From positions 547,597-611,596 of the forward strand of contig CANNZV010000266.1 in assembly GCA_947561585.1 (NCBI GenBank): 64,000 bases of DNA, read 5' to 3'. This stretch comes from Caprella mutica. Lineage: Eukaryota; Arthropoda; Malacostraca; Amphipoda; Caprellidae. Positions 6,518-59,290 of this stretch are shown here, piece by piece. The position numbers and the translations under genes are program-made. The notes below the pieces were generated by a model that did no database searches, had not been told where the DNA came from, and saw only the letters and a program-made list of their open reading frames with translations. The stretch's first letter is position 1, and each line of letters starts with the position of its first letter.

Positions 6518-7822
6518 TAGGGTGGGCTTAAGTTTGGAAGCAATTTTTCAAACATTAATATAATTCTTAAAAATAAGTTCCTAAGTAGGTGATATGGTTT
6601 GAACTATAGTAGAGACACTACATTATGACGTGGCAGTGTTATTTTCTTACATAAATTTAGTCAATTCAAAAATGTCAGACAAAAGAGAAGCCATTATTGC
6701 TCTACACCGTGCCGAGAAGTCAGATTCCGTCATTTCAAAGACTCTCTCAATAGCGAGATCGACTGTTTGGAAGTGTGTGAAACGTTTTAATGAGAGAGGA
6801 GACTTGACTGATCGTCCAAGAAGTGGTAGACCACGCTCACAACGCACCAAACAACTGATTAAATGTGCCCGAGAGAAGATCAGAAGATCAGGAGGAACCC
6901 GAAAAGGTCAATACTATTATTAGCCAAAACAGCTAATGTGAGTCCCAGAACAATGAGAAGAGTTGTCAAAGAAGACCTAAAGATGTCCTCTTTCACCCTC
7001 CAAAAGAGACAGACTCTGTCAGAAGCTGTAAAGAAAAAGAGATTGGAGAGAAGCAAAGCACTTCTGAGAGAATTGAAGTCTGGCACGGCTGGTGAAATTG
7101 TTTGGTCTGACGAAAAAATTTTCACAGTGGAAATGGCTCACAACCGGAGGAATGACAGAATAGTTGGTAAAAAAGCAAAGGACATCCCATACAACCAAAA
7201 AACTGTCCACAGAACCATGAAACCTGCTTTAGTAATGGTCTGGGCCGCCGTTTCAGAAACTTGGAGATCTCCTTTAATTTTTGTGGAACAAGGCGCTAAA
7301 ATCAATGCTAAATGTTATATTGAGAATATTTTGACGCCAATGTTGGAGTCAGCTAAGGATCACTTCGGTAATGACACTCTATGGACATTTCAGCAAGACG
7401 GCGCGACTTCACATACTGCAAATGTCACTCAAAACTGGTGCCATGACCATCTTCCACGGTTTTGGTCCAAAGAAATGTGGCCTCCCTGCTCCCCAGATGT
7501 TAATCCTATGGACTTTTCGGTATGGTCCATTCTTGAATCAAAGGCCTGTGGTAAATTCCATCGCAGTGTGGATGATTTAAAGCGTTCGCTCCAGAGATCT
7601 TGGAAGGAAATTTCACAAGAACAGTTGCGTGCCGCAGTATGAGGAGTTCGGAGGAGATTTGAGGCTGTTATTAAAAACAATGGGGGACATTTTGAATAAA
7701 TTTATGATTTTTGAATTCTTAAAACCCTTATGTAATAATACATAACTGTAAATTATTAAATATATTTTTCGTTGGATTATAATGTGCACTTTCATTTGCT
7801 TCCAAACTTGCGCCCCACCCTG
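6518..7822 (+). mobile_element. Mariner-like element Mar1, copy 1
   Basis: A 1305-bp element with terminal inverted repeats (AGTTTGGAAGCAA at the left, TTGCTTCCAAACTTG at the right). It is flanked by TA at 6516-6517 and 7823-7824, the target duplication of this superfamily. It encodes one transposase, broken by an 8-bp duplication and one stop. Copy 2 lies at 25738-27035 and looks nearly identical over its whole length, so both inserted fairly recently. Confidence 0.95.
6672..7699 (+). pseudogene. Mariner transposase pseudogene (DD37D type), Mar1 copy 1
   Basis: The start at ATG 6672 begins MSDKREAIIALHRAEKSD. An N-terminal helix-turn-helix precedes GRPRSQRT. The catalytic core has Asp in VWSDEKIF, in FQQDGATSHT and in NPMDFSVW. 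By my count 37 residues separate the second and third Asp, which would be DD37D (maT-like). All three Asp are present. Lesions are an 8-bp duplication near 6888-6899 that shifts frame, and a TGA at 7640-7642 where copy 2 has GGA; the original frame then runs to TAA at 7697-7699. It cannot make full-length enzyme as it stands. A Tc1-like assignment is less likely because the last acidic residue is Asp. Confidence 0.9.
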
Positions 7823-17427: not shown

Positions 17428-17999
17428 TATGCATGGTAATAGAGCTGACGTGAACGTCTATGCATGGCAATAGAGCTAACGTGAACATCTATGCATGGTA
17501 ATAGAGCTGACGTGAACGTCTATGCATGGTAATAGAACTAGCGTGAACATCTATGCATGGTGATAGAGCTGACGTGAACATCTATGCATGGTAATAGAGC
17601 TGACGTGAACGTCTATGTATGGTAATAGAGCTGACGTGAACATCAATGCATGGTAATAGAGCTGACGTGAACGTCTATGTATGGTAATAGAGCTGACGTG
17701 AACGTCTATGTATGGTAATAGAGCTGATGTGAACGTCTATGTATGGTAATAGAGCTGACGTGAACGTCTATGCATGGTAATAGAGCTTACGTGAACATCT
17801 ATGCATGGAAATAGAGCTGACGTGAACGTCTATGTATGGTAATAGAGCTGACGTGAACGTCTATGTATGGTAATAGAGCTGACGTGAACATCAATGCATG
17901 GTAATAGAGCTGACGTGAACGTCTATGTATGGTAATAGAGCTGACGTGAACGTCTATGTATGGTAATAGAGCTGACGTGAACGTCTATGTATGGTAATA
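17428..17999 (+). repeat. 31-bp minisatellite, about 18 copies
   Basis: Each unit joins TATGCATGGTAATAGAGC to TGACGTGAACGTC. The second part contains TGACGT and an inverted pair GACGT-GA-ACGTC. TGACG is the half-site bound by CREB/ATF-type bZIP proteins; binding here is only inferred. Variants alternate (GCATGG/GTATGG, CGTC/CATC) in a pattern suggesting two- and three-unit blocks. Confidence 0.96.
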
Positions 18000-20896: not shown

Positions 20897-22136
20897 CAGG
20901 GTGATGGAAATGAATTGTGATGGATGAAATAAAACAAAACTTATCACACAATATCTCAAACCCATTTAACAGTTCTACCAATTATTTTTCAATATGACCA
21001 CCATTGGCGGCGATTACTCTCTCGAGTCTACCTCTGAAGCTCTTTACTGCGGCACGGAACGTTTCTTGGGGAATTTTGGCCCATTGTCACTCGAGAAACT
21101 TCTTCAGAGTTTCCGTACTATCATGAGCTGTAGCGCACGCTTCCTTCTCCAAGATGGACCACACCCAAAAGTCCAGAGGGTTCAGGTCCTGTGATGAAGG
21201 AGGCCACTATTCCTTCCTGATGCTCAGACCAATCCTGAGTTTTGTTCGCTGTGTGTGAGGACGCACCGTCCTGTTGAAAGGTAAAAGGCCTGTCCTTGAA
21301 TTGCTTCTTCATCTCGACTTGTCCTGGAGTCAAAATATCCTCGATATACGAGGATAAGTTTACCGCCTACTTTGACAAAAATGAGAGGAGATCTCCAACT
21401 CTCAGAGATGGCAGTCCAAACCATCACAGAGGCAGGCTTTTGGCGACTGAAAACAGTCTTTACAGATAGAGGGATACTGTCAGCACTTTTTGCCAAAATT
21501 CTGTAGTTCTGGGAGTTGAATTTTGCCTCCACAGTGAACATTTTCTCATCCGAAAAGGCGATCTCACCAGCCTGCGTGCCATCTTTCATTGCATTCAAAA
21601 GAATCTTTGACCTGTCCAGCTTCTTCTGTTTCTGCAAGTCCGTAAGCTGTTGCATGTTTGTCATTTTGAAGGGGTACAACTTGAGATCTTCTTTGACGAT
21701 GGTTTCACACTTTTCTCGTTGATATCCATACTCTTAGCCATCTTTCTCATGCTTCGCTTGGGGTTCCTCCTTACCCGCTCCCTAATGGCTTTGATTTTTG
21801 TTGGAGTGCGTGCAGTGCGAGGTCGTCCACACCTTGGTCGATCACCTGTTATCTCCAGTTCTTGGTTGCGTTTAACAGCTTCCCTAGCATTCGATTTTGG
21901 TGCTTTTAACAGCTTAATAATCTCTGGGTTTGTCTTCCCCGCGTAGTGTAGCTGAATAATAGCCTCACGTTGATTCAATTTCACAAAAGACAATGTAAAT
22001 TTATCAAAATTTAGACCTGCAACATAAAGTATATTATTATAGGAAGAGAATGAAATATAAATGGATGAATTTAGTAAATAAATAACATCTTTAATTTAAA
22101 AAATAAAATTTGATCGGGGACTTTCTCCGCGCCCTG
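20897..22136 (-). mobile_element. Mariner-like element Mar2, nested in the DD41D element
   Basis: A 1240-bp element flanked by TA at 20895-20896 and 22137-22138. Ends: CAGGGCGCGGAGAAAGTC on its 5' side and, inward from the other side, CAGGGTGATGGAAATG, an imperfect inverted repeat. Its protein is related to Mar1 (same core motifs) but clearly diverged. Confidence 0.85.
20982..21993 (-). pseudogene. Mariner transposase pseudogene (Mar1-related), nested copy
   Basis: Starts MSFVKLNQREAIIQLHYAGK at 21993; GRPRTART marks the end of the DNA-binding part. Catalytic motifs are IAFSDEKMFTVE, FTFQQDGASSHTA and, in a shifted frame, WPPSSQDLNPLDFWVW; reading ends at TAA 20982-20984. At least three frameshifts and a few stops break it, and the spacing before the third Asp is shorter than in Mar1, suggesting a small deletion. 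Long known mariner homologues share the AVMVW/SVMVW block seen here as ASVMVWTAISE. Confidence 0.85.
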
Positions 22137-25737: not shown

Positions 25738-27035
25738 CAGGGTGGGGCATAAGTTTGGAAGCAATTTTTCAAACATTAATATAATTCTTAAAAATAAGTT
25801 CCTAAGTAGGTGATAGGGTTTGAACTATAGTAGAGACACTACATTATGACGTGGCAGTGTTATTTTTTTTACAAAAATCTAGTCAATTCAAAAATTTCAG
25901 ACAAAAGAGAAGCCATTATTGCTCTACACCGTGACGGGAGGTCAGATTCCGTCATTTCAAAGACTCTCTCAATAGCGAGATAGACTGTTTGGAAGTGTGT
26001 GAAGCGTTTTAATGAGAGAGGAGACTTGATTGATCGTCCAAGAAGTGGTAGAACACGCTCAGAACGCACCAAACAACTGATAAAATGTGCCCGAGAGAAG
26101 ATCAGGAGGAACCCGAAAAGGTCAATACGATTGTTAGCCAAAGCAGCTAATGTGAGTCCCAGAACATTGAGAAGAGTTGCCAAAGAAGACCTAAAGATGT
26201 CCTCTTTCGCCCTCCAAAAGAGACAGACTCCGTCAGAAGCTGTAAAGAAAAAGAGATTGGAGAGAAGCAAAGCACTTCTGAGAGAATTGAAGTCTGGCAC
26301 GGCTGGTGAAATTGTTTGGTCTGACGAAAAAATGTTCACAGTGGAAATGGCTCACAACCGGAGGAATGACAGAATAATTGGTAAAGTGCAAAAGACATCC
26401 CATACAACCAAAAAACTGTCCACAGAACCATGAAACCTGCTTCAGTAATGGTCTGGGCCGCCGTTTCAGAAACTTGGAGATCTCCTTTAATTTTTGAGGA
26501 ACAAGGCGCCAAAATCAATGCTAAATGTTATATTGAGAATATTTTGACGCCAATGTTGGAGTCAGCTAAGGATCACTTCGGTAATGACACTCTATGGACA
26601 TTTCAGCAAGACGGCGCAACTTCACATACTGCAAATGTCATTCAAAACTGGTGCCATGACCATCTTCCACGGTTTTGGTCCAAAGAAATGTGGCCTCCCT
26701 GCTCCCCAGATGTTAATCCTATGGACTTTTCGGTATGGTCCATTCTTGAATCAAAGGCCTGTGGTAAATTCCATCGCAGTGTGGATGATTTAAAGCGTTT
26801 GCTCCAGAGATCTTGGAAGGAAATTTCACAAGAACAGTTGCGTGCCGCAGTAGGAGGAGTTCGGAGGAGATTTGAGGCTGTTATTAAAAACAAGGGGGAA
26901 CATTTTGAATAAATTTATGATTTTTGAATTCTTAAAACCCTTATGTAATAATACATAATTGTAAATTATTAAATATATTTTTCGTTGGATTATAATATGC
27001 ACTTTCATTTGCTTCCAAACTTACGCCCCACTCTG
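25738..27035 (+). mobile_element. Mariner-like element Mar1, copy 2
   Basis: A 1298-bp element with ends CAGGGTGGGGCATAAG and CTTACGCCCCACTCTG, flanked by TA at 25736-25737 and 27036-27037. It matches copy 1 at 6518 closely throughout, including the untranslated ends, but has different inactivating changes. Confidence 0.95.
25894..26912 (+). pseudogene. Mariner transposase pseudogene, Mar1 copy 2
   Basis: The start codon of copy 1 is ATT here (25894-25896). A TAG at 25981-25983 replaces a serine codon in the DNA-binding region. A 1-bp deletion near 26386 shifts frame before the third quarter. The core motifs VWSDEKMF, FQQDGATSHT and NPMDFSVW are intact, and the true C-terminus, GEHFE followed by TAA at 26910-26912, is readable here, unlike copy 1. 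The lesions do not overlap those of copy 1, so both descend separately from an active source. Confidence 0.9.
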
Positions 27036-28043: not shown

Positions 28044-28066
28044 CCTAAATTGGGTTCTAGGTAAAT

Positions 28067-28198
28067 TGCTCGAAAACAATTGCTCGAAAGAACAATTGCT
28101 CGAAAGACAATTGCTCGAAAAACAATTGCTCGAACGAACAATTGCTCGAATGAACAATTGCTCGAATTATCAAATTGCTCGAATGAACAAAATTGCTC
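28067..28198 (-). repeat. Left arm array of FB-A
   Basis: About ten units of 12-16 bp, each holding ATTGCTCGAA and mostly CAATTG. Mirror image of the array at 29257-29452. Confidence 0.9.
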
Positions 28199-28685
28199 GA
28201 ATTATAGAATAACACAGTTTTCGATTTTATAAAAGTCAGTTATTCATGAAGTGGAGCTGCACCGAACAATGTTTGTTTCTTTTTAGTAATTGATCTTTAA
28301 TCATTCTATAAATGATTTTAATTATTACTCATTCTGCATATAATCTATTTTTAGACCATTTGTGTCATCTCGTATGTTACATGTGAGTTGGAATCATGTG
28401 GTGAATCACTATAACTATTCATGTTTTTTTATCATAAAACCTGAAAATTTATTTATTACTAGCCTATTTGTATGTGACACCTCAATCGGTGAAATAACTC
28501 AAAGTTATGGCAGAGTTTTAATAAATCTACAATTTTGTTGGGCTTTTATAATAAAAAAACATGAATAGTAGTGATTCACCACATGATTCCAATTGACATG
28601 TTACATACGAGATGACACAAACGGTCTAAAATAATAGATTATGCAGAATTAGTAATAATTAAAATCATTTATAGAATGCTTACAG

Positions 28686-29160
28686 CACAGAGAAAAAATT
28701 ATACTCATATCTAATGGGTCATCAATTTATGCTTTGAATCAATTTATTACGTGATTTGGTTGGACTTTATTCATGTTTTCACGCGCGTTAAAACAACTAT
28801 GACGTGGTGTGTCATCAAACATTAGTTAATTCAATTCAATTTATAGATTGAATCAACTTACTATCAGAGTTAAAAGTTACTTTTTTGAAAATTTTACTAT
28901 GACAGAGTGTATTGAAGTAACTCACAACGACTGTTAATAAAATGTATCTGGTGTATAAATTAACTTGCTATGCGAGTTGGCGCTACTTTTTTTAAGTTTA
29001 GGAGTGAGTGAAAACGACTGATTTGTTTTAACCCACGTCAATTTAACTATTTTTAAGTTGTACCTGCATCTCACCATGTAGGTAAGCGCAAAAATAACCC
29101 ATTCATATGAGTCAAAACAAATCAAATTTGATTTGATTCAGCTAATCCTTTTTCTGTGTG
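28686..29160 (+). mobile_element. Block S, copy 1 (inside FB-A right arm)
   Basis: A 475-bp non-coding block starting CACAGAGAAAAA and ending TTTTTCTGTGTG, so short inverted ends. It is the reverse complement of 57980-58465. It interrupts an otherwise continuous foldback arm, which argues for insertion as an independent small element. No clear target duplication. Confidence 0.75.
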
Positions 29161-29256
29161 TGATCACTTACTAAAAAGAAACCAGGACTGTTAGGTGCAG
29201 CTCCACTTCATGAATAACTGACTTTTATAATATCTAAAACTGTGCAATTTTATAAT

Positions 29257-29452
29257 TCGAGCAATTTTGTTCATTCGAGCAATTTGATAATTCGAGCAAT
29301 TGTTCATTCGAGCAATTGTTCGTTCGAGCAATTGTTTTTCGAGCAATTGTTTTTCGAGCAATTGTTCTTTCGAGCAATTGTTCATTCGAGCAATTGTTTT
29401 TCGAGCAATTGTTTTCGAGCAATTGTCTTTCGAGCAATTGTTTTCGAGCAAT
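29257..29452 (+). repeat. Right arm array of FB-A
   Basis: About fourteen units of TTCGAGCAATTGTT type, reverse complement of the left arm array and a few units longer, showing that arm arrays change length independently. Confidence 0.9.
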
Positions 29453-29473
29453 TTACCGGCTACCCCTAAATTG

Positions 29474-35384: not shown

Positions 35385-36458
35385 TTAAAAATTATTGCAC
35401 GAAATGACTAGGAATTTCTTTATGTATGCAGTTGTTAAGTTGAGACGTTTATCAGAGAGAACATTCTTTAGTTTAGAAAAACTTCTCTCCACTTCAACTG
35501 ATGTCACTGGTGCATACTTGTACAGATGAGAATTGCGGGCGATGTTCTCTTCAATCTCCACTTCCTTATCCCCTACTATTACGTCCCTGATTTTCTTCAC
35601 AGCTTTTAGTCCTGGATTGTTCAATACAATATGCGCGCACTTATTCCTTACAGCAAGCCCTACACTTCCATATGCGACGCTCATACTTTGCAAGGCACCT
35701 TCGAACACACCTACTGCATCTACGACTTTCAAGTTCCGCTCTTCTAGTTTCTTGATTGAGTCCGGCAGTGTTGAAAAGTTGGCAGATATGTAGATGAGAT
35801 TGTTCCTGAGCGATTTATCATCTAATAGTTGTTGCGACACTTTAATTGTTGAGGCATCTTCGGGATAAAGTAAACCAACTACGGTTTTAATGATGTCGAA
35901 ATGCTTAGCGTAGTACAGAGCTGCGTCGAGCCAAGTCCCCCACCTAGTGAGTACTGGTTGTGGTGAGAGTGCTAAGTTGGGAGCAGTGTGTTTGAACAAA
36001 TCCACTCTTGACGGAGCCTTAAGAAAAAATTTCTTCACATTCGCAATTAATTTGTCAACATTAGGGAAGTTGAGTCTGATCTCTTCTGCAATTCGGTGCA
36101 ATCCATGAGACAAGCAGGTTAAATGAATCATATTAGGATATTGTGTTTGAAGCGATCTGGCAGCACATTTCATGTATGAAGCTGCATCAGTTACAAGTAA
36201 CAAAACGTTATCAAATAGTATTCCATCGGGCCACAGAAAAGCTAGTGAGGTTGTAAGGAATTGAGCAATTGAAGTGCTATTTGTTTTGTCTAGTTGTTGA
36301 GTATTTAACAAATAAATCTTCGATGCTTCCCCAGCTTCCAGTGTTCCTATAATTATGTTGGCAATGTGTCGACCAGTGACGTCCGTTGATTCGTCGATGC
36401 TCACCCAAATTTTATTGTTGCCTGCATGAGTTCTAATCTTGTTCATCGCGGTGAACAT
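35385..36458 (-). pseudogene. hAT transposase, catalytic and dimerisation part
   Basis: A 357-residue open frame on the minus strand. SIDESTD at about residues 20-26 holds the first catalytic Asp of the RNase H-like fold; LVTDAAS near residue 90 holds the second. CLSHGLHRI near residue 113 matches the C-x2-H motif of the hAT family. The C-terminus EVERSFSKLKNVLSDKR is the conserved dimerisation block containing the last acidic residues. It resembles the CGGBP1-like hAT proteins of insects. Its upstream neighbour carries the zinc finger in a frame shifted by one base; the shift lies around 36450-36460. Apart from that lesion no stop is seen, so the element was probably active recently. Confidence 0.9.
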
Positions 36459-36855
36459 CTACATAATTCTTTCTGAGAGTCAACTCGTCTGGCACGACAT
36501 TTCCCGTGTATTTTTCAAGGAAACTTTTAAAGGATTTGTTTTCCAATTTCAAGAGAGGAATATTAGCATTAACTAGAGCCTCACATAAATCTAAATTAAA
36601 TTGCTTCCTATCTGCATTAGCTGGTTCCACATTGCCCTGATAGTCGTTTACTAAAGGCAATCCGTCACCTTGCAAGTTACTCCTATGCTTAGGTGTTTTC
36701 AGATGAGCAACGATGTTAGATTTTCTACTGTAGCTCATTTCCTTGTCACATGCAATACACTTCAATTTTTCACAATCACCTGATAATACATCACTCCCAA
36801 ATTCGTTTACTAATTTGGCAACAACCTCACGTTTAGTAGACTTCACTTTAGGCAT
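36433..36855 (-). pseudogene. hAT transposase N-terminal part with BED-type zinc finger
   Basis: 140 residues from ATG 36855 ([20 protein letters not shown]). [10 protein letters not shown] then [11 protein letters not shown] give a C-x2-C ... H-x5-H arrangement, a BED/C2H2 finger used for binding transposon ends. [12 protein letters not shown] near the C-terminus is the conserved linker before the catalytic domain. The frame ends at 36433 after the 1-base shift, overlapping the start of the downstream frame by 26 bases. It belongs to the same gene as 35385-36458. Confidence 0.9.
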
Positions 36856-37364
36856 GTTTGTAGGCTCTATATCTAGCTGGTAGCACTAAATGACTTGCTT
36901 CATTCAAATTGTCTCCAATAGTGTTTCCATACAGTGTTGCCAAATGTCATTATAGTTATATGCAGCTTTTATAGTCATTATCGTTAAATGCCACTGTTTA
37001 ATAGTCATTATAGTTAACTGCTATTGTTTTCTAGTCATTATAGTTAAATCCTATTTTGCATGGTTAAATGCTATTTTGCATGGTTAAATGCTATTTTGCA
37101 TGGTTAAATGCTATTTTGCTGGGTTAAATGCTATTTTGCTGTTAATGCTATTTGTTTCTAATCGTTATAGCATTTAAAGAATAAATGCTGGAAATCCGTT
37201 CTCTAATAATAAGTCACTAATTAATAAAAACTAAATCTGAAGACACGGACCATGTGTGGATTGTTATGTTACACCAATATTAATAGTATTGAAAAACTGA
37301 TATTTTCAACGGGAAAGTACACTAGTCTTTATAAATCACCAAATTTGTGTTCAGTATATAGAAT

Positions 37365-47082: not shown

Positions 47083-48352
47083 CAGGGTCGTGCAGCTAAA
47101 TTGGGACTAACTTTAACAGCACATATCTTCCGTAATTTCTAACCTATGACTAAATTCTTTTTTACAGACAATCTTTAAGCCCTTTGCTATAATATTTCAG
47201 ATTAAGTTCTAGCATATTTCGCTAAAATATGGCGGAATTAGCGCGAAGAACGACCAAATGTGAAATGAGACGCGCCGGGAACTCTGTTTCAGACATTATT
47301 AAGAGCACTGGCTATGCGAAATCGACTGTTTATCGAGTTGTTGCTGCTTTTGATGCCGAGGGTAAGTTTCAGAGAAGTCGACACAGTCCCCGCAGTGATC
47401 GAAAGAGAACCAAAACATTCCTTGCTGGGCTGAAAAGGACGTTGAAGTCAGACCCAAGCCAGCTGATGTCAAAACTGGCACAAAAGCGCAGCGTGAGTCG
47501 TAGCACCATCAGCAGGGCAGTCAAGGAAGACCTTGGTATGAAGTCATACGTAAGGAGAGTCCGTAACCTCCTAACTACCCGCTCCAGAGCCCTCAGAGCT
47601 GAAAGATGCGTAAAGCTTCTGGACCATCTGAAACACAAAGGAGGACATGTACGCGTTTTTGTTGACGAGAAAAAGTTCGTTGTTGCAAATCGTCAGAACA
47701 TGGAGCCTCCGATCGTTCAGAAGCTCCTCCTGTGATGCAGAGCAAAAATCCCGCTTCTGTGATGGTTTTTGCAGCCGTAGCAAGTGATGTCTAGGTGATG
47801 CCTCCTCATTTCATCGAAGCAGGTCTTAAAATCAACACAGCGTAGTACTTGAAAATTCTGAAAGATGTTTTGATACCGTGGATATGTAGGAAATACGACC
47901 CCTTCAAAGTGATGCTCGTTCAAGAATCTGCACCCGCGCATGGAGTGAAGAAAGTTCAGGATTTCCTGAAGGAGAATCTTCATTTGATGGTCCCGAAGAA
48001 TATTTGTCCCAGCAGCTTCCCAGATCTGAATGTTTGTGACTATTGGCTGTTTGGCGTCATTGATGGAGAGTCTAACGTAACTTCACATCCAAGTGTCAAC
48101 TCTCTGAAGGCCGTCATTCGTCGGGCATTTCGTAATCTTGACCCCGAGGATGTAAAAAGGAGTTGTTCACAGTTTCGCTCGAGAATCTCCCAAATTATTG
48201 ATGCAAAGGGTAGTCACTTAGAATGATTTTGTTCTGTAGACAATAACGAACAAATAAATACAAGTAAAAATTACATTTAATCATTATTTGCCTTTCAAAA
48301 TAGCGAATTTAAAAAAAAGTCATGTTAGTCCCAATTTAGCTGCACGACCCTG
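47083..48352 (+). mobile_element. Mariner-like element Mar3
   Basis: A 1270-bp element with matching inverted ends (CAGGGTCGTGCAGCTAAATT and its complement, continuing to GGGACTAAC). TA lies at 47081-47082 and 48353-48354. The 29 terminal bases on each side look identical, so the ends are fully preserved even though the gene is broken. Confidence 0.95.
47229..48226 (+). pseudogene. Mariner transposase pseudogene with altered catalytic residue
   Basis: Starts MAELARRTTKCEMRRAGNSV, with a helix-turn-helix including GYAKSTVYRVV. The first catalytic Asp is in VFVDEKKF. A 1-base frameshift lies just before 47735, and TAG codons at 47792-47794 and 47843-47845 follow in the restored frame. The second catalytic position reads VQESAPAHG, so Glu replaces the expected Asp. 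The third Asp is in PDLNVCDYWLFG; 37 residues lie between the second and third positions. The C-terminus IDAKGSHLE ends at 48226. Unlike Mar1 in sequence, although the spacing is the same. Confidence 0.9.
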
Positions 48353-49179: not shown

Positions 49180-52100
49180 GACAATTGCCAATCACACCAG
49201 AACAATTAACAATCACACCAGAACAATTGACAATCACACCAGAACAATTTACAATTACACCAGTACAATTCACAATCACACCAGTACAATTGACAATCAC
49301 ACCAGAACAATATACAATCACACCAGAACAATTGACAATCACATCAGAACAATTTACAATCACACAAGAACAATTTACAATCACACCAGTACAATTCACA
49401 ATCACACCAGAACAATATACAATCACACCAGAACAATTGACAATCACACCAGTACAATTGCCAATCACACCAGTACAATTGCCAATCACACCAGTACAAT
49501 TGCCAATCACACCAGAACAATTAACAATCACATCAGAACAATTAACAATCACACCAGAACAATTAACAATCACACCAGAACAATTAACAATCACACCAGA
49601 ACAATTAACAATCAAACCAGTACAATTGCCAATCACACCAGAACAATTAACAATCACACCGGAACAATTGCCAATCACACCGGAACAATTGCCAATCACA
49701 CCAGAACAATTGCCAATCACACCAGAACAATTGACAATCACACCAGAACAATTAACAATCACACCAGAACAATTTACAATCACACCAGAACAATTAACAA
49801 TCACACCAGAACAATTTACAATCACACCAGAACAATTAACAATCACACCAGAACAATTAACAATCACACCAGAACAATTGACAATCACACCAGAACAATT
49901 GACAATCACACCAGTACAATTAACAATCACACCAGAACAATTGACAATCACACCAGAACAATATACAATCACACCAGAACAATTAACAATCACACCAGAA
50001 CAATTAACAATCACACCAGAACAATTAACAATCACACCAGAACAATTAACAATCACACCAGAACAATTGCCAATCACACCAGAACAATTAAAAATCACAC
50101 CAGAACAATTGACAATCAAACCAGAACAATTTACAATCACACCAGAACAATTAACAATCACACCAGAACAATTTACAATCACACCAGAACAATTAACAAT
50201 CACACCAGAACAATTAAAAATCACACCAGAACAATTGACAATCAAACCAGAACAATTTACAATCACACCAGAACAATTAACAATCACACCAGAACAATTG
50301 ACAATCACACCAGAACAATTAACAATCACACCAGAACAATTGACAATCACACCAGAACAATTGACAATCACACCAGTACAATTAACAATCACACCAGAAC
50401 AATTGACAATCACACCAGAACAATATACAATCACACCAGAACAATTAACAATCACACCAGAACAATTAACAATCACACCAGAACAATTAACAATCACACC
50501 AGAACAATTAACAATCACACCAGAACAATTAACAATCACACCAGAACAATTAACAATCACACCAGAACAATTAACAATCACACCAGAACAATTGCCAATC
50601 ACACCAGAACAATTAAAAAACACACCAGAACAATTGACAATCAAACCAGTACAATTGCCAATCACACCAGAACAATTAACAATCACACCGGAACAATTGC
50701 CAATCACACCGGAACAATTGCCAATCACACCAGAACAATTGCCAATCACACCAGAACAATTGACAATCACACCAGAACAATTAACAATCACACCAGAACA
50801 ATTTACAATCACACCAGAACAATTAACAATCACACCAGAACAATTTACAATCACACCAGAACAATTAACAATCACACCAGAACAATTAACAATCACACCA
50901 GAACAATTAACAATCACTCCAGAACAATTGCCAATCACACCAGAACTATTAAAAATCACACCAGAACAATTGCCAATCACACCAGAACAATTAACAATCA
51001 CACCAGAACAATTGCCAATCACACCAGAACAATTAAAAATCACACCAGAACAATTGAAAACCAAACCAGTACAATTGACAATCACACCAGTACAATTGCC
51101 AATCACACCAGAACAATTAACAATCACACCAGAACAATTAACAATCACACCAGAACAATTAACAATCACACCAGAACAATTTGCAATCACACCAGAACAA
51201 TTGCCAATCACACCAGAACAATTGACAATCACACCAGAACAATTGACAATCACACCAGTACAATTAACAATCACACCAGAACAATTTACAATCACACCAG
51301 AACATTATACAATCACACCAGAACAATTGCCAATCACACCAGAACAATTGACAATCACACCAGAACAATTGACAATCACACCAGAACAATTAACAATCAC
51401 ACCAGAACAATTGACAATCACACCAGAACAATTAAAAATCACACCAGAACAATTGACAATCACACCAGAACAATTTACAATCACACCAGAACAATTTACA
51501 ATCACACCAGAACAATAGCCAATCACACCAGAACAATTGACAATCACACCAGAACAATTTACAATCACACCAGAACAATAGCCAATCACACCAGAACAAT
51601 TGCCAATCACACCAGTACAATTTACAATCACACCAGAACAATTAACAATCACACCAGAACAATTGACAATCACACCAGTACAATTTACAATCACACCAGA
51701 ACAATTAACAATCACACCAGAACAATTGACAATCACACCAGAACAATTAACAATCACACCAGAACAATTTACAATCACACCAGAACAATTAACAATCACA
51801 CCAGAACAATTAAAAATCACACCAGAACAATTGACAATCAAACCAGAACAATTTACAATCACACCAGAACAATTAACAATCACACCAGAACAATTGACAA
51901 TCACACCAGAACAATTAACAATCACACCAGAACAATTGACAATCACACCAGAACAATTGACAATCGCACCAGTACAATTAACAATCACACCAGAACAATT
52001 GACAATCACACCAGAACAATATACAATCACACCAGAACAATTAACAATCACACCAGAACAATTAACAATCACACCAGAACAATTAACAATCACACCAGAA

Positions 52101-53583
52101 CAATTAACAATCACACCAGAACAATTAACAATCACACCAGAACAATTAACAATCACACCAGAACAATTGCCAATCACACCAGAACAATTAAAAAACACAC
52201 CAGAACAATTGACAATCAAATCAGTACAATTGCCAATCACACCAGAACAATTAACAATCACACCGGAACAATTGCCAATCACACCGGAACAATTGCCAAT
52301 CACACCAGAACAATTGCCAATCACACCAGAACAATTGACAATCACACCAGAACAATTAACAATCACACCAGAACAATTTACAATCACACCAGAACAATTA
52401 ACAATCACACCAGAACAATTTACAATCACACCAGAACAATTAACAATCACACCAGAACAATTAACAATCACACCAGAACAATTAACAATCACTCCAGAAC
52501 AATTGCCAATCACACCAGAACAATTAAAAATCACACCAGAACAATTGCCAATCACACCAGAACAATTAACAATCACACCAGAACAATTGCCAATCACACC
52601 AGAACAATTAAAAATCACACCAGAACAATTGAAAACCAAACCAGTACAATTGACAATCACACCAGTACAATTGCCAATCACACCAGAACAATTAACAATC
52701 ACACCAGAACAATTAACAATCACACCAAAACAATTTGCAATCACACCAGAACAATTGCCAATCACACCAGAACAATTGACAATCACACCAGAACAATTGA
52801 CAATCACACCAGTACAATTAACAATCACACCAGAACAATTTACAATCACACCAGAACAATATACAATCACACCAGAACAATTGCCAATCACACCAGAACA
52901 ATTGACAATCACACCAGAACAATTGACAATCACACCAGAACAATTAACAATCACACCAGAACAATTGACAATCACACCAGAACAATTAAAAATCACACCA
53001 GAACAATTGACAATCACACCAGAACAATTTACAATCACACCAGAACAATTTACAATCACACCAGAACAATAGCCAATCACACCAGAACAATTGACAATCA
53101 CACCAGAACAATTTACAATCACACCAGAACAATAGCCAATCACACCAGAACAATTGCCAATCACACCAGTACAATTTACAATCACACCAGAACAATTAAC
53201 AATCACACCAGAACAATTGACAATCACACCAGTACAATTTACAATCACACCAGAACAATTAACAATCACACCAGAACAAATGACAATCACACCAGTACAA
53301 TTAACAATCACACCAGAACAATTGACAATCACACCAGAACAATATACAATCACACCAGAACAATTGCCAATCACACCAGAACAATTGACAATCACACCAG
53401 TACAATTGCAATCACACCAGAACAATATACAATCACACCAGAACAATTGACAATCACACCAGAACAATTTACAATCACACCAGAACAATTGCCAATCACA
53501 CCAGAACAATTTACAATCACACCAGTATAATTCACAATCACACCAGAACAATATACAATCACACCAGTACAATTGACAATCAC
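49180..53583 (+). repeat. 21-bp minisatellite, 4.4 kb, about 210 copies
   Basis: Unit CAATCACACCAGAACAATTGA with variants at the last bases (TTAA, TTTA, TTGC, ATATA) and AGAAC/AGTAC. Blocks recur at larger scale. The AAAAAACACACC variant sits at 50611 and 52186 (1575 bp, 75 units), and the AACAATAGCC variant at 51511 and 53065 (1554 bp, 74 units), so about 1.55 kb was duplicated in tandem with one unit later lost. The ATCAAACCAGTAC block at 49611 recurs at 50640 (1029 bp, 49 units). No indels within units are evident, which keeps one plus frame open for 1458 codons and minus frames for over 700. Confidence 0.98.
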
Positions 53584-56989: not shown

Positions 56990-57570
56990 TGCATCCCAGC
57001 ATTACAAGAAGAAAGACTGGGGTTCTAGAAGCAATTTTGTTCTTGGCTAACACAGCGTCCAAGAGAACCCTCCGGTGGACATGACTAAGGTGCTTCTTCC
57101 TCCTCTTCACATCAAGCTTGGTTTAATGAAGGATTTCGTGAAGGCGTTGGAACATGGTGCTGCCTTCCAATTCTTGTCAATTTCTATACTGTGTTCCCAG
57201 ATCTTAGTGCTGATAAGCTCAAAGAGGGATCCTTTGTCGAACCTCAGATGCGAGGAGTGCTGAAGGATATTGATTATGAGGAATTTCTTAACTTAAAAGA
57301 ATTGAGAGCTTGTGAAGCATTGAAGTAAGTATGTAGGGGCTTCCTTGGTACTACACGCGTACCAGATTACCATGCCTTTAAAGTTAAACTGTTAAAGTCT
57401 TACGAGGACATATAGGGTGATGAATGTCACTCAAGATTCATTTTCTCCATTTTCACCTCAACTTCTTCCCGCCAAACCTTGTGGCAGTGACTGATGAGCA
57501 TGGAGAAAGATTCCACCAAGATATTATGAAGATTCAGAGCAACTCTCAATGCAAATGGAACCCCAGCATG
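56990..57570 (+). pseudogene. Conserved metazoan gene fragment, 5' part (split by FB-B)
   Basis: Readable in shifting frames: HYKKKDWGSRSNFVLG, then VLLPPLHIKLGLMKDFVKAL, then FPDLSADKLKEGSFVEPQ (partly frameshifted), MSLKIHFLHFHLNFFP and DEHGERFHQDIMKI, stopping at WNPSM. The PPLHIKLGLMK ... DEHGERFHQDI order matches a family I know as multicopy 'uncharacterized' proteins in arthropods, cnidarians and other animals; function is not established. At least two frameshifts and stops make it a pseudogene. Less AT-rich than its surroundings, as expected for former coding DNA. The fragment continues at 59183 after the foldback. Confidence 0.7.
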
Positions 57571-59182
57571 GGTTCTAGGTAAATTCCCCCGCGGAAAATT
57601 CCACCACGGAAAGTTCCACCAAGAAAATTCCACCACGGAAAATTCCACCGCATAATACTGGATTTCATTTACAGAAGGTATAACATTTAATAAAAAAACT
57701 GATTTAAATAAAAATTTGTTTTTTTGTGGTAACTGAACAACATTTCATTAGTTAGAAATTTAAGAAATTATAAGAATATGTTATGTTAAGTGAAGGACTA
57801 AGATATAAGCTAAGACGAACTTAGGAAATAATAGATAGTTCAAACAATCTTTTAAATATGAATCTGCCCCAGTGATCAACAATTTAGATTCCATTTAATT
57901 CTACTTTAAACATATATACATTTGTTGAAACTGAAATTAAGGCTAATGTTTTGTTTGTAATACAAATTATATAATTATCACACAGAGAAAGGATTAGTTA
58001 AATCAAATTTGATTTGTTTTGACTCATATGAAAGGGTTATTTTTGCGCCTACCAACGTGGTGAGTTGCAGGTACTACTTAAAAGTAGTTAAATTGACGTG
58101 GGTTAAAGCAAAACAGTCGTTTTGACTCACTCCTAAACTTAAAAAAAAGTAGCGCCAACTTGCAAAGTAAGTTAACTTATACACCAGATAAATTGGATTA
58201 ACAGTTTTTGTGAGTTCCTATAATACACTCTGTCATAGTAGTTTTAACATACTTTAAAATTCTCAAAAATGTAACTTTTAACTCTCATAGTAAGTTGATT
58301 CAATCTATAAAATGAATTGAATTAACTAATGTTTGATGACACACCATGTCATAGTTGTTTTAATACACATGAAAACATGAATAAAGTCTAACCAACTCAC
58401 GTAATAAATTGAATCAAAGCATCTATTGGTGACCAATGTGATATGAGTATACTTTTTTCTCTGTGTATCACCCAACTTTTTAATTGTACCAATATAAATT
58501 TCAATTTTAATCAGCGACGATAAAAGGTGGAATTAAAAAATAAATTTGACACGTACCGAAATAAAATATTTAATTATTATCGATACATTTTAATAAAATA
58601 ACAGAAAAATTTTATAGCTGAAACTTTCTGAAACTGTTTAATAATGTCTATTGAAATTATTACAGAAGAAAGTTTAAATATGATGCGTTTCAACTAAATT
58701 TTGAAAATAAAGATAAAAAGGTAAATTGGGGTACAGTAACCAATTTCGATCCGAAACCACAGACACACGAATAAAAATCATAAATTTAAAACTCACAAAG
58801 ATATATAAATCATAACATAATATAAATCTTTAGCTATGCAACATCTTAATATAAATTCGGTTCAGCAGGTCACTAAATAAGAATTATAGACACTAGAAAC
58901 ATGATTGTCATATTCTGCTTAATATTAACCTTTTCAATAATGAATATATACCTAACAATATTCAATTTTGTATCAAATAATATAATCTGAACTTTAGTGT
59001 TTCTGTTGATAGATTCAAGAAGGTAAATTTAGCAGTGTTATAATCTCTTCATTTATACTGTTTTTTGTATAGTTTTTCAAAATGGTGGAATCTTCCACGG
59101 TGGTATTTTTATACATCTGGCATATATGACGCCGGTGGAATCTTCCTGGTGGAACTTTCCACGGTGGATTTTACCGGCCACG
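57571..59182. mobile_element. Foldback element FB-B with different minisatellite arms
   Basis: The left end GGTTCTAGGTAAATTCC is identical to the FB-A left end for 15 bases. On the opposite strand the right end is CGTGGCCGGTAAAATCC. Arms carry an AAATTCCACCACGG-type array (57585-57650, and inverted about 59080-59170), unrelated to the FB-A unit. The putative 9-bp target duplication is CCCAGCATG (57562-57570) and CCCGGTATG (59183-59191), two transitions apart. Insertion split a conserved gene fragment. It contains block S at 57980-58465. No transposase was found. Confidence 0.8.
57980..58465 (-). mobile_element. Block S, copy 2 (inside FB-B)
   Basis: Reverse complement of 28686-29160 over its full length with scattered substitutions. 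Ends CACACAGAGAAAGG and CTTTTTTCTCTGTGTA are inverted. Flanks TATCA-like on both sides may be a short duplication, but the copy in FB-A does not confirm a size. Confidence 0.75.
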
Positions 59183-59290
59183 CCCGGTATGATTGGGGCT
59201 TCTGCTGGATGCTCTTGCATGAAATCCCGGAGGCCAAAATTCACCAGATTCTCTCAAGAAAACACACTTTCGACTGCCTGTGGTACTATT
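59183..59290 (+). pseudogene. Conserved metazoan gene fragment, 3' part
   Basis: Reads FCWMLLHEIPEAKIHQILSR then KHTF, matching the segment that follows NPSMLADYCW in the same family (CW.L.R.IPEAK pattern). It begins at the right target duplication of FB-B, so 57570 and 59192 were once adjacent. One small frame difference lies at the junction. Confidence 0.6.

Follow-up and report, generated by a model that had tools for sequence, protein, structure and literature searches.

Muta1, an active MULE, carries a 10-bp terminal motif and nine subterminal repeats that form part of its terminal inverted repeat (TIR) (PMC5225508). Muta1 and Muta5 of Aedes aegypti have been grouped with Phantom (PMC6446971). 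In these two, target duplications of 8-9 bp flank a terminal motif of 8-10 bp followed by nine copies of a 12-bp repeat (with 3-4 bp spacers) or of a 15-bp repeat. Further, they have many non-autonomous derivatives with other interiors, and Muta1 is a type 2 Foldback element (PMC5225508). The Mutator/Foldback element Tm1 of root-knot nematodes makes 9-bp duplications, bears 7-bp motifs that differ between its two ends (A1, CGGTTAA; A2, CCTACCC) and 1-9 copies of a motif C of approximately 14 bp (CGATTCAGTATCGC), and its transposase is of the Phantom type with FLYWCH (PMC3169594). Foldback-like arms also occur in Galileo, a Drosophila element of the P superfamily, in which the tandem arm repeats hold binding sites of the DNA-binding domain of the transposase (PMC3573991, PMC3688188), and the arms were proposed to give specificity (PMC3688188). 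Tetris of Drosophila virilis likewise has a foldback shape and 8-10 bp duplications, and the final parts of its TIRs are common to another element, DAIBAM (PMC4079207). 

Here we describe two foldback elements, FB-A and FB-B, of the amphipod Caprella mutica, both within a window of 64,000 nucleotides (C266:547597-611596; the window is the whole stretch of DNA that was analysed). Most likely they belong within the Mutator-type group, where the cut ends stay similar and the adjoining repeat diverges between lineages. A P-type foldback of the Galileo kind was considered and rejected, as the duplications here are 9 bp and related elements carry MULE and FLYWCH domains; Galileo has a THAP-domain P-type transposase, 7-bp duplications and units of approximately 210 bp (PMC3573991, PMC3688188). 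Tetris differs in its repeats of approximately 220 bp, and no transposase was found for it (PMC4079207). The likeness to Muta is one of architecture; the end of Muta1 was described as an imperfect palindrome, and one terminal motif common to different families is not stated for Muta in the available portion of PMC5225508. FB-A and FB-B work like Tm1 but are not assigned to it. Asymmetric terminal motifs are present in both systems (L-type and R-type ends here), but the letters of A1, A2 and motif C were not matched in a by-eye comparison, and Tm1 has one motif C with variants per species (PMC3169594), whereas several units occur on one end pair here. The combination of a terminal motif, repeats of approximately 15 bp, 9-bp duplications and a FLYWCH-MULE transposase is already known from the available accounts of Muta and Tm1, and of Phantom (PMC6446971). 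What is of interest is that a single genome has several units beside the same asymmetric pair of ends. In the portions of the literature searched, we found no description of a single end pair that occurs with many arm units in the same genome, which is not a claim that none has been printed.

An earlier note on this DNA had placed FB-B at exactly 57571-59182 (+ strand), and its end motifs and 9-bp flanking duplication gave these same bounds. The duplication is worn: the left copy (CCCAGCATG, 57562-57570) matches the right copy (CCCGGTATG, 59183-59191) at 7/9 positions, and both mismatches are transitions. FB-B starts with the L-type end GGTTCTAGGTAAATT (57571-57585), which is common to FB-A, and its left arm (57581-57649) holds 4.7 copies of a 15-bp unit (AAATTCCACCACGGA). 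The right arm (59083-59176, - strand) consists of inverted, interrupted TTCCACC-type units (inverted pairs I1-I3) and leads into the R-type end CGTGGCCGGTAAAAT (59168-59182, - strand). FB-A (28053-29464, + strand) is flanked by a 9/9 duplication, CCTAAATTG, at 28044-28052 and 29465-29473. Its arms are of the AATTGCTCGAA type, with units of approximately 16 bp in the left arm (28064-28201); the right arm lies at 29255-29453 (- strand). We classify both elements as non-autonomous.

The left-end stretch common to FB-A and FB-B is 17 nt long (TGGGTTCTAGGTAAATT). Its first two letters belong to the flank, because the target duplications place the boundary after them, so that 15 element bases remain, as the earlier note had stated. 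By eye, the last six of these (TAAATT) lie already within the first arm unit. The right ends read inward (CGTGGCCGGTAAAAT in FB-B, GGTAGCCGGTAAATT in FB-A) are related, not identical. The arm arrays do differ, and when the plus strands of FB-A and FB-B were compared by blastn at 1e-8, no match between the two was found. FB-B resembles two other elements of the contig: E2 (C266:397624-398896) aligns collinearly at 66-84%, and E3 (C266:447340-449135, inverted) has the arms and short interior pieces in common with it.

Both elements contain a MITE of approximately 490 bp. In FB-B it lies at 57979-58468 (+ strand; CACAGAGAAA...TTTCTCTGTG), and in FB-A at approximately 28686-29162 in the opposite orientation (- strand). 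The TIR of this MITE is CACAGAGAAA, and TA adjoins both ends in most of the seven other copies read. When the genome was searched with the whole of FB-B, 40 of the 4770 first-look candidates were scored. Apart from the window's own place and the FB-B arms, all 40 matches listed fall on the MITE part, at 92-94% identity except for one short piece at 84%. In E2 the MITE is absent from the place that corresponds to its insertion in FB-B. A common interior was thus rejected as proof that FB-A and FB-B form one family, since the aligned part is this separate high-copy MITE.

To place the shared end in the genome (903 Mb, 7200 contigs), exact and relaxed patterns were counted. In the window, GGGTTCTAGGTAA occurs twice with zero mismatches, both times at the FB-A and FB-B ends; allowing up to three mismatches gives nine matches, no more than shuffles yield. 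Genome-wide, GGGTTCTAGGTAAA was found at 362 sites (175 forward, 187 reverse) and the reversed pattern at 2. The common end of FB-A and FB-B is therefore not due to chance. We read 250 bases, and so one arm, at the first 40 of 100 sites listed among the 362. The FB-A unit adjoined the end at 30/40 and the FB-B unit at 8/40, with no array at the remaining two; since GGGTTCTAGGTAAA includes TAAA, these counts favour units that begin that way. An arm mixing FB-A and FB-B units was seen at 0/40 sites, each represented by one arm of about 230 bases. The commonest unit spacings in the copies read were 14-18 (FB-A type) and 14-16 (FB-B type). Two nearly identical loci, L043 and L060, carry GGGTTCTAGGTAAATT without a tandem array and probably represent a different repeat with this end.

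FB-A has transposed. A full copy (positions 239-1832 of locus L076), 93% identical to FB-A over 1398 bp, is flanked by a 9/9 duplication (GATGAAAAG), and locus L069 is continuous across the homologous site, with a single copy of the target, that is, an empty site. These data bear out the earlier suggestion of a mobile family as regards FB-A. Further, the L076 copy contains the MITE of approximately 490 bp in the same place, and the composite of FB-A and MITE was therefore itself copied to a new place.

A sample of 264 kb of C266 (the window and L009-L028) was searched for ends without arm letters and is thus less biased. GTGRCCGG occurs there at six sites, compared with two for the reversed pattern and a Markov mean of 1.3 (largest of 20 runs, 3). 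All six adjoin arms of approximately 15-bp units, which are of the TTCCACC type at three sites and TTCGCCGAAAACAC, AATTGACACCCCGAC and ATTCATCCACTGAA at one each; four of the six arms exceed the 95% background of the tandem score, and the remaining two, which are the right arms of FB-B and E2, were assessed visually. For GGTNCTAGG there are likewise six sites (reversed, 1; Markov mean, 1.85, largest 4). Arms of three unit types lie beside five of them, and the site at 509030 has none; two of the six (505833 and FB-B) pass the tandem score, and FB-A, E2 and E3 were judged by eye. The window itself contributes one of the GTGRCCGG sites and two of the GGTNCTAGG sites. One terminus with several unit types, as the earlier note had proposed, was thus seen in the window, in the 264 kb and genome-wide; the other copies do not all carry one unit, and the 15 bases are neither a chance match nor simply part of a wider repeat.

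The 264 kb contain at least nine foldbacks with arms of approximately 15-bp units, namely FB-A, FB-B, E2, E3, U1, U2, U4, U5 and U6; U3 (C266:481885, CGGTCTAGG, TTCCACTG units) and solo arrays at 358752, 361128 and 431456 were left out of this set. U2 (C266:421741-422804, in L016) and U4 (486474-487572, in L022) have 9/9 duplications, and their ends do not fit the CTAGG/CCGG pair described below. In U1, U5, U6 and the L076 copy of FB-A, just one of the two ends agrees with the end formulas. A 9-bp duplication was sought at the flanks of E2, E3 and U6 and was absent, and at U5 a match of 7/9 requires a slide of 1. When left and right flanks of the nine elements were cross-paired with fixed ends, 0/72 pairs reached 7/9, and 1/72 did so when a slide of 2 was allowed on each side; the boundaries were picked by eye, which may inflate this test. 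The direct repeats of U1 and U4 are longer by eye (10 and 12 bp), and the exact ends of these two, and also of U2, were therefore chosen with the duplication in view. Duplication lengths of 7 or 8 bp were considered and rejected, as 9 bp suits FB-A, U1, U2, U4, the L076 copy and the transposase-bearing L072.

Other repeats are frequent in this region. The window holds many further minisatellites, among them a 4.4-kb array at 49181-53583 (21-bp unit, approximately 210 copies) that is open in several frames. An array at 17428-17999 has the same 31-bp unit as foldback-like inverted arrays in L022 (804-2704; C266:478400-480300), which have the shared flank AGGCTTTGTGGTGAAGAGAA. Frames of a hAT/DUF659-type transposase lie at 35385-36885 (- strand; closest database protein 83% identical), and Tc1/mariner-like transposase frames were recognised by eye at 6863-7642, 21224-22095 (- strand), 25984-26912 and 47226-47735. 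The named relatives of two of the transposon proteins are mostly from arthropods.

The genome has 59 matches to the MULE transposase domain (PF10551), and ten of these loci were fetched (L069-L078). Four (L070, L071, L072 and L078) are bounded by arms of approximately 15-bp units and by 9-bp duplications and contain MULE frames, of which some are interrupted. The duplications match at 8/9 in L070, 7/9 in L071, 9/9 in L072 and 8/9 in L078 (the last by scanning 60 positions). Inside L070 lies another inverted arm, which ends at 2172; if the element is taken to stop there, no duplication results (2/9 versus 8/9). The ends are CGTGACCGG/GGTGCTAGG in L070, GGTGCCCGG/GGCGCTAGG in L071, GGTGCACGG/GGCTCTAGG in L072 and GGTGCCCGA/GGCGCTAGG in L078; each element pairs an end that reads ...CTAGG with one that reads ...CCGG (ACGG in L072, CCGA in L078). 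Three units occur among the four, CGGACAATTGCCACCC, CGGAAAACTCGCACC and CGGACAACTCGTAGC, none of which is the FB-A or FB-B unit. L071 and L078 belong to one transposase lineage (236/250 residues identical) and have the same arm unit, and the MULE domains of L070, L071 and L072 are 44-52% identical.

A Pfam scan of the L069-L072 frames detected a FLYWCH finger before the MULE domain, above the cut-off, in L069, L071 and L072, and the MULE domain alone in the L070 frame. The best database matches of the transposase carry PF10551 and mostly PF04500, and the named ones are from a beetle, a crustacean, an aphid and a spider. In L069, the exact FB-A left end and unit lie approximately 1.4 kb before a 495-aa frame with both domains, and FB-A 1-196 matches this locus at 87%. 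A search of L069 for an A-type right end was negative. A 232-bp inverted repeat (95%) of different sequence flanks the frame, which may therefore belong to a different element beside an FB-A fragment. Among the ten loci fetched of the 59 matches, none has a transposase between A-type or B-type arms at both ends, and none has B-type arms beside a MULE frame. Complete ends of the CTAGG/CCGG kind are absent from six of the ten (L069 and L073-L077). L073 and L074 were rejected as candidates, having MULE matches beside minisatellites but no foldback ends or arms, as were L075, L076 and L077, where arrays are present without resolved ends of this kind.

FB-A and FB-B are best read as non-autonomous foldbacks moved by FLYWCH-MULE (Phantom/Muta-like) transposases, with a constant end and arm rows that diverge by lineage; we assign this reading a probability of about 0.8. 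We infer the type of transposase from the recurrence of the ends, arms and duplications in MULE-bearing elements, together with the FB-A copy and its empty site. As in Phantom/Muta-like elements, which have a short terminal motif and subterminal repeats of 9-15 bp, a 9-nt end adjoins units of approximately 14-17 bp, and MULE transposases lie inside elements with CTAGG/CCGG ends. Further, the target duplications (9/9 in FB-A, 7/9 in FB-B and 7-9/9 in the MULE-bearing relatives) fall within the 8-10 bp range of this group.

The earlier note had held that the terminus is kept while a mobile family repeatedly builds or captures new minisatellites beside it. Its first half stands, in that one end occurs with several units; the recurrent capture is not supported. 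Read in phase from the end, the units open with CG or CGG and continue into an A-rich stretch; in the R-type end, CGG resembles the start of the first unit. In this phase, nine units were more alike than in all 2000 random rotations, and 1/2000 rotations was as good when the CG head was left out; the units were picked and phased by eye, which may inflate the test. That a mobile end has again and again acquired unrelated minisatellites, for example by slippage of sequence beside a fresh end, would agree with the wealth of other minisatellites in the window and with the FB-A and FB-B units taken alone, which are not clearly more alike than shuffles (346/2000 as good). Such capture is nevertheless improbable, given the phased skeleton common to nine units (0/2000 rotations), a period that stays near 14-17, the lack of mixed arms at the 40 sites, and the single unit in the only transposase lineage for which two copies with complete ends were seen (L071 and L078). 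The units seem to be divergent forms of a single phased unit rather than minisatellites that were captured; because of the phased likeness, the missing mixed arms and the common unit of L071 and L078, divergence of one ancestral unit of approximately 15 bp, lineage by lineage, fits better, and an old capture is possible.

Gene conversion or chimeric exchange between families could instead have paired an old end with a foreign arm, as in Galileo. E2, E3 and U6 lack duplications, like the chimeric Galileo copies in the available text of PMC3573991, and an A-type arm is present on just one side of L069. However, the arms match at both ends in FB-A, L070, L071, L072 and L078, all with 7-9/9 duplications, and interior and arms agree between FB-B and E2 (E3 has only short interior pieces in common), so that we regard exchange as unlikely. 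Independent origin of the ends and 15-bp arms under one transposase chemistry, which would make the letters uninformative on descent, draws on U2 and U4, where the architecture and 9-bp duplications accompany different ends. It is hard to reconcile with 15 identical bases in FB-A and FB-B and with an asymmetric CTAGG/CCGG-like pair that recurs where MULE domains are 44-52% identical (L070, L071 and L072), and we consider it very unlikely. Finally, unrelated inverted minisatellites that start alike by chance or through faulty assembly are scarcely credible in view of the 362 versus 2 sites, and for FB-A the empty site of its copy refutes them; no observation in favour of this reading emerged.

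In the FLYWCH-MULE reading, the conserved 9-nt end (L-type, approximately GG[TC]NCTAGG; R-type, approximately [CG]GT[GA]N[CA]CGG) would be the end at which cleavage and strand transfer take place. These formulas were written after most ends had been seen; of the two loci fetched afterwards, L078 has such a pair and L077 does not. The arms would be rows of approximately 15-bp transposase-binding sites, the first unit beginning inside the end itself. By analogy with described elements, arm units are probably such rows, and the FLYWCH finger may read the unit and the catalytic part the end. The end would remain nearly constant across lineages, and the row of sites would be homogenised within an element and diverge between transposase lineages; one end pair could occur beside many units because the end changes little while the row diverges. 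It is conceivable, at somewhat less than even odds, that end and arm are separately evolving modules, the core reading the asymmetric end pair and the FLYWCH finger a unit that co-diverges with it. FLYWCH identity (32-41%) is slightly lower than MULE-domain identity (45-48%) in the same three pairs, which fits such co-divergence and lends it weak support.

The puzzling pair of repeats is thus accounted for as members of a large transposon group. The proposal offers a testable answer to why foldbacks carry tandem arms, namely that these are binding-site rows evolving apart from the cleavage end. If this is true, one genome would hold a natural set of matched pairs of FLYWCH finger and DNA unit beside an end that hardly changes. 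Such a set would make readable the DNA code of the finger and the rule for which transposase moves which non-autonomous elements.
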